Source: Acidimicrobiales bacterium (GTDB taxonomy: Bacteria > Actinomycetota > Acidimicrobiia > Acidimicrobiales > Aldehydirespiratoraceae). Taken from it: 64,000 nucleotides of DNA. Below are positions 24,417 to 30,457 of the stretch, in pieces. Positions within the stretch are counted from its first letter, which is position 1. Each line of letters begins with the position of its first letter. The DNA lies in contig JAJCXX010000084.1 of NCBI GenBank assembly GCA_029263195.1, positions 1-64,000 on the forward strand, in the 5' to 3' direction. The position numbers and the translations under genes were made by a program. Under the pieces are notes generated by a model. It made no database searches. It saw only the letters and a program-made list of their open reading frames with translations, and was not told the DNA's origin.

Positions 24417-24579
24417 GATGTCATCGAAGCGGGCGATCCTGTGAGTGGTCTGTGACTCGTCCTGGGATGTTCTGCGGCGCGGCAGCGGACAGCCCCGGTG
24501 GTGTCCGTGCGTCCGACAGTGCCCTCCTCGCAGCGGGAGGCTTAATGTCGGATTCACGACTATCGAGAGGCAAGCTTCA

Positions 24580-25386
24580 ATGACCTTCACCATCACCAAG
24601 ATCAAGCTCGCGATCGCGGTCGCGGTCGTGGCACTACTCGTACCGGCCACCGCCCTCGCGACTCACACCTTTGGCGACGTCCCAACCGCGAAGTACTACC
24701 ACGACGCCGTTGCATGGGCCTTCTCCAACGGCATCACCACCGGCACATCGGCAACGACGTTCTCCCCTGAAGACCCCGTCACCCGCGGCCAGAACGTCAC
24801 CTTCGCCCATCGCTACGACACCAATATCGTCCAACCAGCGCTGGCAACTCTTACTGGCACGGCCGCAGCCAACTCTGCCGCGATCGTCGGCAACGACACC
24901 GACATCGCCGCCAACGCCGCCGGAGTCGCCGGAACCTACACCAAGGCCCAAGTCGACGCGGCCGTGCTGGCGGCCATGCTCGGCACCGCGACAATTCCCT
25001 CGGGCACGACCGTCACCGGAGAAGCTCGGTGGGATCACGCTTCGGTATCCGACAACGAGGACCTGCAGTTCATCGTCGAGCTGCCGGGTCGAGCTCCAAC
25101 GGCGCTCACCAGCGACCTCAACGTCAACTTCGCCCCGGCCGCGGGCTCGCTCACCTTCGACACAGACGCCACGTGTACCGGCACTTCCGGCGCTCCGACC
25201 GCTCCCGCGGGGAAGGTGTGCCTCTATATCTCTACGTCGAACCTGGTGGACGGGCTCAGAGGAAAGTCCACCGTTGAGACGAGCTTCCAGGATCGATACT
25301 TCCGGATCGATGCCAGAACCAACGATGGCACTGCCCCCGGCAACGACATGTACCTCGACATCACCTGGGCCTACACGGCCCCCTGA
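24580..25386 (+). CDS. exported protein with SLH-like domain
   Basis: signal peptide then HTFGDVPTAKYYHDAVAWAFSNGITTGTSATTFSPEDPVTRGQNVTFAHRY. Confidence 0.75.
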   Translation: MTFTITKIKLAIAVAVVALLVPATALATHTFGDVPTAKYYHDAVAWAFSNGITTGTSATTFSPEDPVTRGQNVTFAHRYDTNIVQPALATLTGTAAANSAAIVGNDTDIAANAAGVAGTYTKAQVDAAVLAAMLGTATIPSGTTVTGEARWDHASVSDNEDLQFIVELPGRAPTALTSDLNVNFAPAAGSLTFDTDATCTGTSGAPTAPAGKVCLYISTSNLVDGLRGKSTVETSFQDRYFRIDARTNDGTAPGNDMYLDITWAYTAP

Positions 25387-26150: not shown

Positions 26151-26353
26151 CCCCTGTGGGCGCCCAGAACTCTGTCGTACCCCTCTGACCGGGGAGAATT
26201 CGGCCGGCCGCGCCGCGAGTGAGAGTGGAATCCGCGCACTTGCAGGGTTTTCGCTCCGGATCGTGCCAGATGCAACGGTGCGGTAGGCGAGTCGGGCTGC
26301 GCCACCGATCATCATGGCAAGGCCGATGTGGGTGATGGCGAAGACTGCGGCGA

Positions 26354-26512
26354 TCAGCCACCAGATCGAGGTTCGGGTAGGAGCCAGAGGGCCAGGGCCC
26401 CGGTTGTGAACAGCGCTGCGCCTCCGGCGAGGAGGTGTGTTCGCAAGCCGGTGGTGAGCGGGGTGTGGTCTGGGCGACGATTTGAGATCGGGCCCTCGCG
26501 TGTGGTCGTCAT
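26354..26512 (-). CDS. putative single-TM microprotein (52 aa)
   Basis: MTTTREGPISNRRPDHTPLTTGLRTHLLAGGAALFTTGALALWLLPEPRSGG*; start overlaps the stop of the upstream 33-aa ORF; below ORF-track size cutoff. Confidence 0.45.
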   Translation of the reverse strand: MTTTREGPISNRRPDHTPLTTGLRTHLLAGGAALFTTGALALWLLPEPRSGG

Positions 26513-26610
26513 CCGTGCATGGATGCTGCGACGAGGATCACGAGGCCGACGATGATGAGTACGGCGAGAAGGCCAAGGCCTGTCCGGAGCTGTTGGGATC
26601 GGGTGGTCAT
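26509..26610 (-). CDS. putative single-TM microprotein (33 aa)
   Basis: MTTRSQQLRTGLGLLAVLIIVGLVILVAASMHG*; preceded by AAGAAAAGG Shine-Dalgarno-like sequence, 30 bp after ABC permease stop; below ORF-track size cutoff. Confidence 0.5.
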   Translation of the reverse strand: MTTRSQQLRTGLGLLAVLIIVGLVILVAASMHG

Positions 26611-26640
26611 GTTTTGGTTACCTTTTCTTGGTTGGCTGAT

Positions 26641-28995
26641 CTACTCATGGACCAGCGCTTGGTTTACGGGTGTCTCGGCAATTTCGAGGGCGGGGATAGC
26701 GCTGGCGATGGCGGCTAGAACGATGACGATCGCGAGCCAGACGCCGGTTCCGGCAGGGGAGAAGCTGATCGGGAGGGGGGCCTGAAGGAAGAGGTTCCCG
26801 GTGATGTTTTCCACGGCCACGGTGGCGGGCACCGATATGGCGAGGGCGGCCAGCCAGCTGATGCCGGCGATGAGGACGCCTTCGACGACTACGACCTGCA
26901 GCACCTTGGCGGTGCTCGCTCCGACGGCACGCATGACTCCGAGTTCTCGGCGTCTCTCGAGCACACTGATGCTCATCGCTTCGATCAGTCCGAGTCCGCC
27001 AACTATCGAAATGAGGATGGCCATGGTCATGAGGAGGCCGACGATGATCAGCAGGTGGTCATCGAGGGCCTCGCGGCCGTCGGCGGCGGTGGCAATGTTG
27101 ATGACGTCGATCCCGTTCTCGGCGAGGCGTTTTTCGAGTGCGTTCATGGCCGACTGTGCTTCGTCACCGGCGATGCGGATCTGATTGGCGGATCCTTCTG
27201 CGCCGACTCCGGCGGGGAGGTTACTGGCGTATGCCACTCCGGTCCGACCGCCGCTGAGTTGGCGGACTTTCCCGACGACGGCCCAGGAGTTGTCGATGCC
27301 TTCGACCTCGATGGAGACGGTGTCGCCAACGGCGGGTGCCGGGTCATCGAGCGTCTGGGCTATGACAACTGCGTCGGTCTCTCCGGGCTCAAACCAGCGG
27401 CCTTCGGTGACGGGGTAGTCGATCATGTCGGTGTCGGGGGGTGCGATGAGCAGTCCGAAGTTGTCGCCTGCGCCACCTTGCGGAAGCCGGATTGCGACGC
27501 GGTACTGGTTCCACATCTCGACTGCATCGATTCGGGGAACATCGGAGATGATCTGCTCGAGTTGTTGGTTCGGGTAGGGCTGGTCAAGATCGACTTCGAG
27601 CGTGTACTCGCGAGCGTCGAACTCGGCGTCGACGGCTCTGTCCCAGGCCACCCCGGTGTTGAGGGCCACCATGAACGCTGCTCCACCGAGAGCAATGGCG
27701 AGAACGGTGAGCGCGGTGCGGGATCGGGTGCGGAACGAGTTTCGTATTCCGAGGGCGGTGACGCGTCCGAGTCGGCTGCTGAGCCGCGGGCCAGCCGATG
27801 TGGGGCAGGTGGCTCGAGAGGAGGCTCCCTGATCACTCATCAGCTCGCGAACCGGCATTCGGCTGTTTCGGGTCACCGGGATCATCACGGCAAGAAGAGG
27901 AATGCCGAGTGCCGAGGCGACCTGTAGCGGTATCACCCAGGCATCGAGGCGGTAACTCTCTACCTCGAAGTTGAGGAGTCCGAACGTGAAGCCGATGAAG
28001 CCGCGACCGCCGAGAATCCCGAGCGGTATTCCGATGGCGAGAGCAACGACGCTCAGAATCGCCACGGTGCCCAGGTAGAGCCCGGCTATCTGTCCGGTTT
28101 GGGCGCCGATCGCTTTCATGATCGCGATCTCGCGGCTTTGCTGTTTGAGCTGAGCAGTGATGAGCGTGGCGACGAGAGCCCCGCTGGTTACCAGTGCGAT
28201 TACACCGAAGGCCTGGAGCAGGAACAGCATGGTCGTCATCACGCCGGTCGATGGGTGTTCGCCGGGAAGGGGTACATCGAGCCGCTGGACGTCGATGCCG
28301 CCGGCTTCGAGATCGGCGACCAGGGCATCGGCGATCCTGCGGTTGTCGGCTCGATCCTTGTTGTCGACGGTGACGATCTGAAGCTCGTTGAGTGTGGGTT
28401 CGATCCCCATACCGGCGAGACCGTCTGGGGTGACATAGCCGACCACGACGCCGATCATCCACGCAGGCGTCCGGCCCGGGTCATGCGCCAGACCAGCCAC
28501 CGACAGCGACCGCGGGGACCCCCCCGGGGCAGTGACGATGATGTCGTCGCCGACACCCATGTCGACCTCGGTGAGCGATGATCGTTCGATCAAGATCTCG
28601 TCACTCTTCGGGACCCGTGCCCCTTCTTCGGGGTAGAAGCGGCCCACGGTCACGTCATCGAAGTCGTCGACCACTACCAAATGCAGAGTCAGCCACTCAT
28701 CGGGGCCTTGCTCAAGCCGGGCGAGTATCTCGCGTCGGGCCTCCGCGTCTGCGATCTCAGGGCGGGCCTTGACTGTCGCCACGAGGTCGTCGTCAACAGA
28801 GTCGATGCGCAGGGTGGCCGATGGCGGGTTCGTGTCGCCGTAGTTGCGGTCCATCTCCCTGGTGATCACCGAGTAGGCAGTGAGAATCGATCCAGCCGCA
28901 ATCACCCCGACTGCGATAGCCGCGGTCACCAGCGCGGTGCGCCCCTTGTTCAGGGTTAGGTCTCGCAGGACCTTTCGCCACCTCGGGTTAACCAT
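26641..28995 (-). CDS. MacB/FtsX-type ABC transporter permease
   Basis: two FtsX-like halves, e.g. AIMKAIGAQTGQIAGLYLGTVAILS and SVLERRRELGVMRAVGASTAKVLQVVVVEG; start at ATG overlapping upstream ATPase stop. Confidence 0.9.
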   Translation of the reverse strand: MVNPRWRKVLRDLTLNKGRTALVTAAIAVGVIAAGSILTAYSVITREMDRNYGDTNPPSATLRIDSVDDDLVATVKARPEIADAEARREILARLEQGPDEWLTLHLVVVDDFDDVTVGRFYPEEGARVPKSDEILIERSSLTEVDMGVGDDIIVTAPGGSPRSLSVAGLAHDPGRTPAWMIGVVVGYVTPDGLAGMGIEPTLNELQIVTVDNKDRADNRRIADALVADLEAGGIDVQRLDVPLPGEHPSTGVMTTMLFLLQAFGVIALVTSGALVATLITAQLKQQSREIAIMKAIGAQTGQIAGLYLGTVAILSVVALAIGIPLGILGGRGFIGFTFGLLNFEVESYRLDAWVIPLQVASALGIPLLAVMIPVTRNSRMPVRELMSDQGASSRATCPTSAGPRLSSRLGRVTALGIRNSFRTRSRTALTVLAIALGGAAFMVALNTGVAWDRAVDAEFDAREYTLEVDLDQPYPNQQLEQIISDVPRIDAVEMWNQYRVAIRLPQGGAGDNFGLLIAPPDTDMIDYPVTEGRWFEPGETDAVVIAQTLDDPAPAVGDTVSIEVEGIDNSWAVVGKVRQLSGGRTGVAYASNLPAGVGAEGSANQIRIAGDEAQSAMNALEKRLAENGIDVINIATAADGREALDDHLLIIVGLLMTMAILISIVGGLGLIEAMSISVLERRRELGVMRAVGASTAKVLQVVVVEGVLIAGISWLAALAISVPATVAVENITGNLFLQAPLPISFSPAGTGVWLAIVIVLAAIASAIPALEIAETPVNQALVHE

Positions 28996-29788
28996 GAGAA
29001 ACAGCCGCTGACACCTGGGCAGCGTTCGGAGCGGGCGTGTTGCCGCCGAGAACATGTCCATCGGCGACGGTCACCACCCGATCCACGCTGGTAGCAATGT
29101 CTCGTTCGTGGGTCACCATCACGATCGTCTTGCCTCCAGCCGCGAGTTCGCGAAATAGCTCGAGCACTGACTCAGCGGTTCGCGAGTCGAGATTGCCGGT
29201 CGGCTCGTCGGCCGCGATCACCGGAGGGTCGTTGGCGAGCGCCCGAGCAATGGCCCCGCGCTGCTGCTGGCCAGCCGACAGGGCGGAGGGGAACTTGCCG
29301 GCCTGGTCGGAGATGCCAACCAACTCAAGCATCGACATCGCCTTTGGCGCCCGCTCGCGTGTCGGGATCGACCCTGCGAAGTCCATCGGCATCATCACGT
29401 TCTCGAGGATCGTGAGAGTTGGCATCAGCTGCTGGAACTGGAATACCAGTCCGAGGTTGGAGCCCCGCCATTTGGCGAGTTCGTTCTCGCTGAGGTCGTT
29501 GAGGACAGTTCCGTTGATTTCGACCAGGCCTGAGGTTGGTCGGTCGATGCCCGACAACATGTTGAGCAGAGTCGACTTGCCACTGCCCGATTTGCCGACG
29601 ATGGCGACGAACTGGCCGGAGTCGATGCTGAGATCGGCGCTCGACAACGCCGAGAAGTCGCCCGCCCCGGTGTCGTAGGTCTTGGTGACCCCTTCGAGGG
29701 TGATGACCCGTCGACGTGTAGCTGAGGTGAGGGATTCGCTCTTGCGCACCTCGCCCCGATTCCGTACTCTTCGTCTTATAGCGAACAT
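28988..29788 (-). CDS. MacB/LolD-type ABC transporter ATP-binding protein
   Basis: GKSGSGKSTLLNMLSGIDRPTSG, LSAGQQQRGAIARAL, VIAADEPTGNLD; start placed at MFAIRRRV. Confidence 0.9.
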   Translation of the reverse strand: MFAIRRRVRNRGEVRKSESLTSATRRRVITLEGVTKTYDTGAGDFSALSSADLSIDSGQFVAIVGKSGSGKSTLLNMLSGIDRPTSGLVEINGTVLNDLSENELAKWRGSNLGLVFQFQQLMPTLTILENVMMPMDFAGSIPTRERAPKAMSMLELVGISDQAGKFPSALSAGQQQRGAIARALANDPPVIAADEPTGNLDSRTAESVLELFRELAAGGKTIVMVTHERDIATSVDRVVTVADGHVLGGNTPAPNAAQVSAAVSHG

Positions 29789-29795
29789 GATGTTC
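29783..29795. promoter_or_regulatory. palindrome GAACAT-G-ATGTTC overlapping the ABC ATPase start
   Basis: perfect 6-bp arms. Confidence 0.45.
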
Positions 29796-29851
29796 AGTAT
29801 CAGAGTCGCCAACATTGAGGTCAAGAATCAATCCGGCCGGAGTGTCTCCTA

Positions 29852-29877
29852 CTGAACACCGGCGCCAGATTGTTCAG
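29852..29877. promoter_or_regulatory. inverted repeat CTGAACA-N12-TGTTCAG upstream of TetR gene
   Basis: perfect 7-bp arms sharing the TGTTCA half-site with 29783-29795. Confidence 0.5.
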
Positions 29878-29908
29878 AACAGAGACCTCTCAGAACGGAG
29901 CGAGGTCC

Positions 29909-30457
29909 ATGGACACCGAAGACCGCAGAGTGCGTCGCACCAAGGAACGACTCCACGATGCCCTCATGTCGCTCATCGAAGAGAGGGGGTACGACAAGAT
30001 CACCGTGCAAGACCTCATCGACCGCGCCGACGTCGGCCGGTCCACGTTCTACTCGCACTACGAAACCAAAGACGACCTGCTGATCAGTGGCCTCCACCGC
30101 CTCAGCGACGACATCGAATTGCACATGACGGACGACCCGTCCGCCAACGACATCCTCCCCAGCCTCGGCGTGTTCCGCCACGTCGCCGACCACCACGAGC
30201 TCTTCAAGGCGATGATCGGCAGCCGAGGAATCGACCTCGTTATGCATGCAGCCCGCGACGCACTAACCGAAAGAGCGAAATCAAACATCGACCGACGGAG
30301 CTCCACCAGCAGGAACGCAGCGATACCAGCCGACGCAAGGGCCGCTTTCATAGCCGGCTCACTCATGGCCTTTCTCACCTGGTGGCTCGACAACGACAGA
30401 CCCCACCCACCCGACCAGATGGCCGAAATGTTCCAACAGCTCACCACAAGCGCCTGA
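29909..30457 (+). CDS. TetR/AcrR-family transcriptional regulator
   Basis: RRVRRTKERLHDALMSLIEERGYDKITVQDLIDRADVGRSTFYSHYETKDDLL. Confidence 0.9.
   Translation: MDTEDRRVRRTKERLHDALMSLIEERGYDKITVQDLIDRADVGRSTFYSHYETKDDLLISGLHRLSDDIELHMTDDPSANDILPSLGVFRHVADHHELFKAMIGSRGIDLVMHAARDALTERAKSNIDRRSSTSRNAAIPADARAAFIAGSLMAFLTWWLDNDRPHPPDQMAEMFQQLTTSA

Follow-up and report, generated by a model that had tools for sequence, protein, structure and literature searches.

A conserved 33-residue single-TM microprotein gene behind a Type VII ABC permease, next to an apparently frame-broken two-helix gene

Do the short ORFs that follow an exporter permease gene in this Acidimicrobiales genome encode small membrane proteins, and might such proteins belong to the exporter? 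In the window, by which we mean the whole 64,000-nt stretch of DNA that was analysed, a sequence-only reading had proposed two unannotated, overlapping single-TM microprotein genes and a third frame just downstream of them. The layout that it described was recovered in full: on the minus strand, an ABC ATPase gene (29824-28988) is followed by the permease gene (29061-26641), ORF33 (26610-26509), ORF52 (26512-26354), whose ATG overlaps the TGA of ORF33 as ATGA, and a start-less third frame.

ORF33 (26509-26610, minus strand; MTTRSQQLRTGLGLLAVLIIVGLVILVAASMHG) is a real gene: it is coding and conserved, and its position in the operon is fixed. Its ATG lies 30 nt beyond the permease stop and is preceded by a ribosome-binding-site region (26611-26629, minus strand; AAGAAAAGGTAACCAAAAC) with an AAAGG-type motif, AAAAGG, in agreement with the Shine-Dalgarno-like sequence that had been noted there. 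In a codon model trained on the long ORFs of the window, ORF33 scored +13.3 bits, compared with a median of 10.2 bits for real genes and with 95th and 99th percentiles of 10.3 and 16.1 bits for wrong frames; the other two frames of ORF33 gave negative scores, far below its own. An HMM picked ORF33, part of ORF52 and the third frame all as coding. Hydropathy predicts one strong TM helix (KD 3.02) between a basic N-terminus and a C-terminal [LM]H[GA]. Given this N-terminus and the positive-inside rule, the protein is predicted to be N-in, and the [LM]H[GA] end would then face outside. No leader or cleavage motif was seen in the 33 aa, and ORF33 matched no small-protein family of Pfam or NCBIfam.

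The strongest comparison comes from L050 (genome G308), a locus found in a class-wide search and the sole close relative of the exporter found, whose permease is 67% identical to that of the window. The corresponding place in L050 holds an ORF that is likewise 33 codons long (MSNRSKQLKSVLGILTVVIFVGVVLLVAVSLHA); it aligns with ORF33 without gaps at 55% identity and 82% similarity (E = 2e-12). Between the two, replacement sites change significantly less than synonymous sites (dN 0.26, dS 0.98, dN/dS ~0.27; Fisher p 0.002-0.003), a constraint like that on the permease (dN 0.24, dS 1.02, dN/dS about 0.24), and this substitution pattern indicates that ORF33 is under purifying selection. With fewer than 60 aa, one TM helix and this constraint, ORF33 has the features of small membrane-protein subunits of the AcrZ/KdpF/CydX/CcmD kind. 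The L050 ortholog and the two-TM protein described below gave weak Pfam and NCBIfam matches, far below the cut-offs. Stops or frameshifts in close relatives had been named as evidence that would count against the two proposed microprotein genes, and the comparison with L050 separates them: ORF33, with its conserved length, its purifying selection and its counterparts at the same place in related operons, survives, whereas ORF52 falls as a separate gene.

The 33-aa ORF of L050 is joined by the same ATGA overlap to its downstream neighbour, an intact ORF of 84 aa that encodes two TM segments. The first part of ORF52 is 40% identical to this ORF over 47 codons, and the third frame, which reads SIWWLIAAVFAITHIGLAMMIGGAARLAY, is 52% identical to its second helix over 25 residues (E = 4e-7); both matches scored above all 5000 shuffles. 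A codon HMM blind to L050 followed the ORF52 frame up to 26371 and the third frame from 26370. The third frame is open from 26537 to 26076 and, as the sequence-only reading had suspected, contains no start codon before an ATG at 26315; among the ~60 coding segments of the window, it is the only start-less one unexplained by two genes run together. Since both halves match the intact ORF of L050, the HMM switches frame and the second piece is start-less, we read them as a single gene whose frame has shifted by a net one base. Its N-terminal half (TM1) occupies 26372-26512 on the minus strand (codon-model frame -1, 26371-26512), and its C-terminal half (TM2, ...WWLIAAVFAITHIGLAMMIGGAA...) occupies 26260-26370 on the same strand in the other frame, with no start codon of its own. 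By these matches, ORF52 is not a microprotein gene: it covers the front half of a two-helix protein gene whose frame is broken, and consists of the TM1 half plus an out-of-frame tail to 26354. The hydropathy of ORF52 (1.84) is weaker than that of ORF33, and that of the third frame is 2.03. Used as queries against relatives, ORF52, the 84-aa protein of L050 and the joined protein gave, outside their own genomes, chance-level matches only, and the Pfam match of the two-TM protein to CcmD_alt (E = 8) amounts to none. The case of ORF52 illustrates that a microprotein-looking short ORF can be half of a frame-broken gene.

In this assembly, the two-TM gene would be either a pseudogene or the result of an assembly error. 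Beyond TM2, the window frame lacks the stop of L050 and coding character in the codon model is lost, and the comparison with L050 gave no significant sign of strong selection on the gene (N-vs-S Fisher p = 0.16), observations that lean a little towards a decaying gene rather than a single assembly error. The coding look of both frames on either side of the switch would also fit a programmed -1 frameshift yielding two products, a short one of 52 aa and a longer one with both TM helices. However, the sequence at the switch, CTC CTA CCC GAA CCT, contains no slippery heptamer, the L050 protein is encoded in a single frame, and the window frame runs on past the position of its relative's stop as coding character fades. 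Because the slippery site is absent and L050 uses one frame, programmed frameshifting was rejected as highly unlikely.

The gene ahead of ORF33 encodes a duplicated FtsX/MacB-type (Type VII) ABC permease of 806 aa (26641-29061, minus strand). It matches Pfam FtsX (PF02687) in two stretches and MacB_PCD (PF12704), and hydropathy gives eight TM helices, arranged as 4+4, with two extracytoplasmic domains; the FtsX domain and a MacB-like outer domain between TM1 and TM2 place it in the Type VII (MacB/FtsX/LolC) superfamily. The best full-length match to its AlphaFold model, which is of moderate quality (mean pLDDT 62, six sequences), was E. coli YbbP (9ge6, TM-score 0.68), followed by MacB, LolE, BceB and others. 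By the NCBIfam models and, for YbbP, the number of helices, the permease is neither YbbP (ABC_perm_YbbP, 8.9 bits against a cut-off of 999; eight helices against ten) nor MacB (equivalog model, 34.8 bits against 966). The ATPase gene (28988-29824, minus strand; Pfam ABC_tran) is of the LolD/FtsE/MacB exporter type, its best NCBIfam match being LolD_lipo_ex, under the cut-off of that model. A TetR-family regulator gene (29870-30457, plus strand; Pfam TetR_N and TetR_C_8) diverges from it, and no MacA/HlyD adaptor gene was present among the neighbouring genes scanned. On the other side of the short ORFs, positions 24445-25386 (plus strand) encode a protein that looks secreted and carries one S-layer homology domain.

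The operon is rare. One close ortholog of the exporter operon was recovered in ~1,850 genome searches. Some genomes were searched repeatedly, and since no more than 2-5 candidates per genome were scored in the large searches, the counts are lower bounds. No permease orthologs were found in the 60 nearest genomes, and nothing related to the permease was found on plasmids and viral contigs. Given this very patchy distribution, the exporter operon (26641-30457) was probably acquired horizontally.

More distant permeases also carry microORFs at this place. In L051, from the same order, and L029, from a MAG filed as Phenylobacterium, the permeases are 36-37% identical to that of the window, and an SD-led single-TM ORF begins 49-50 nt after the permease stop (MTRNGKRLTVLAVIAGIVGLGFFAGPLVLDAFLELHGL in L051, MRRGIVIGLVVVAAVVGLLYTAHAMDLVGLLLRMHAPPVH in L029); the AAAGG-type motif ahead of the microORF is common to L050, L051 and L029. 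We scored 207 distinct 300-nt stretches behind ORFs of at least 300 aa, taken from all loci gathered by then, for a TM microORF that has 28-60 aa and whose start lies in the first 150 nt. Four qualified, namely those of the window, L050, L051 and L029, and none of the 203 others did. The neighbourhood with the large subunit is thus conserved for all four permeases at 36% identity or above. All four microORFs have a basic N-terminus and an [LM]H[GA] end, a motif noticed in these same sequences. TetR homologs that diverge from the ABC gene are present in all three loci with a visible upstream region (33% identity and E = 1e-35 in L029, 32% and 2e-28 in L051); the L050 contig ends too early. In the permease tree, the four fall into one group (97/99) with L058 and L061. 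Since the microORF is absent downstream of L058 and L061, it is not obligatory in the group, and it is absent behind eight more distant permeases as well. By sequence, ORF33 does not significantly resemble the microproteins of L051 and L029 (scores as high were reached by 404 and 336 of 5000 shuffles, respectively); what the four loci have in common is therefore place, topology and C-terminus, with common descent not demonstrated.

Other arrangements were seen in the loci gathered. A different pair, conserved between two families, comes after the permeases of L052 (5269-5954, plus strand) and L053 (minus strand), which show 32-33% identity: one ORF has 97 aa and ends in RKRKKPRRRTIEMPF, and the other encodes 130 aa and is basic. 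In L066 (5443-6966, plus strand), a gene for a TM segment plus an alpha/beta-hydrolase (Abhydrolase_1) directly follows a distant permease of the same superfamily, a layout that recalls the YbbAP-TesA pairing of transporter and hydrolase. The L029 cassette, seen also as L068 (the same place), lies amid a gene for an AcrB-family RND pump and one for a hybrid histidine kinase, which suggests an efflux island in that MAG.

We favor, with moderate confidence, the interpretation that the ORF33 product is a small accessory subunit in the membrane, serving a YbbP-like Type VII ABC exporter that is under TetR control and lacks an adaptor; its binding and function are putative, and the regulatory-subunit role suggested earlier is plausible by analogy. 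ORF33 would be made together with the permease, would pack as a lateral helix against the eight-helix protein, and might influence how the exporter assembles, hydrolyses ATP or handles substrate, much as AcrZ acts on AcrB. By an alternative analogy, it could act like the N-terminal helix of MacA on MacB. Its conserved outward His may contact substrate, lipid or the outer domains of the permease.

Alternatively, ORF33 could be a real gene that is only transcribed along with the exporter genes and whose product works outside the export mechanism: it might serve as a small peptide substrate, help in assembly, or signal to some other membrane partner. Some microproteins in transporter operons work elsewhere, operon position suggests co-expression only, and the microORF is not universal in its permease group, but the same topology and place recur behind permeases of two phyla and the 33 aa show nothing resembling a leader or cleavage motif, such that we regard separate action as possible, though rather unlikely. 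Short ORFs are common, and the similarity to the L029 and L051 microproteins does not exceed chance; the microORFs might thus be nonfunctional, shared by the window and L050 through recent descent and arising as chance ORFs in the GC-rich DNA of L029 and L051. This explanation is very unlikely in view of the dN/dS of 0.27 despite about one synonymous change per site, the negative scores in the wrong frames and the empty control regions. A wider proposal, which we consider speculative and quite doubtful, is that, in an eight-helix, adaptor-less Type VII exporter clade spanning two or more phyla, detached single-helix microproteins (with a two-helix protein in one subclade), each with a conserved outward C-terminal His, take over from the additional helices that YbbP has or from MacA's TM helix, and so couple ATP hydrolysis to work at the outer face.

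The accessory-subunit interpretation makes ORF33 a probable member of the small membrane-protein partners of transporters, with its partner role putative. In the literature searched, which covered few subscription papers, we came across no description of a Type VII ABC system (MacB/LolCDE/FtsEX/YbbAP) with a small-protein subunit, nor of a microprotein for YbbAP. Should ORF33 indeed bind its permease, Type VII ABC machines would gain a partner of a new kind, and the pair would offer a compact setting in which to study how a mechanotransmitting ABC protein is tuned by one isolated helix.

Among known systems, AcrZ, a 49-aa protein that binds AcrB (PMC7267776, PMC10903887), is like ORF33 a single-TM small protein accompanying an export pump, but its pump is of the RND kind, no sequence relationship to ORF33 was found, and binding by ORF33 is putative. 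CcmD, a component of CcmABC (PMC10903887), likewise is a small membrane protein in an ABC transporter complex, although that complex is a haem-delivery ABC of another type. MacAB-TolC, in which the TM helix of MacA is required to stimulate the MacB ATPase (PMC5985334), shares the FtsX/MacB_PCD domains, whereas the window cassette has no MacA/HlyD adaptor gene, encodes ATPase and permease as separate proteins and has a duplicated permease. YbbAP-TesA (Type VII ABC; PMC12646458, PDB 9ge6) differs in that YbbP has 10 TM helices, the extra pair linking its halves (PMC12646458), compared with eight in the window permease, which has no TesA-like hydrolase adjacent to it. YbbAP is nevertheless the best fold match, with a separate ATPase, a single-chain duplicated permease and two MacB-like outer domains, as in the window.
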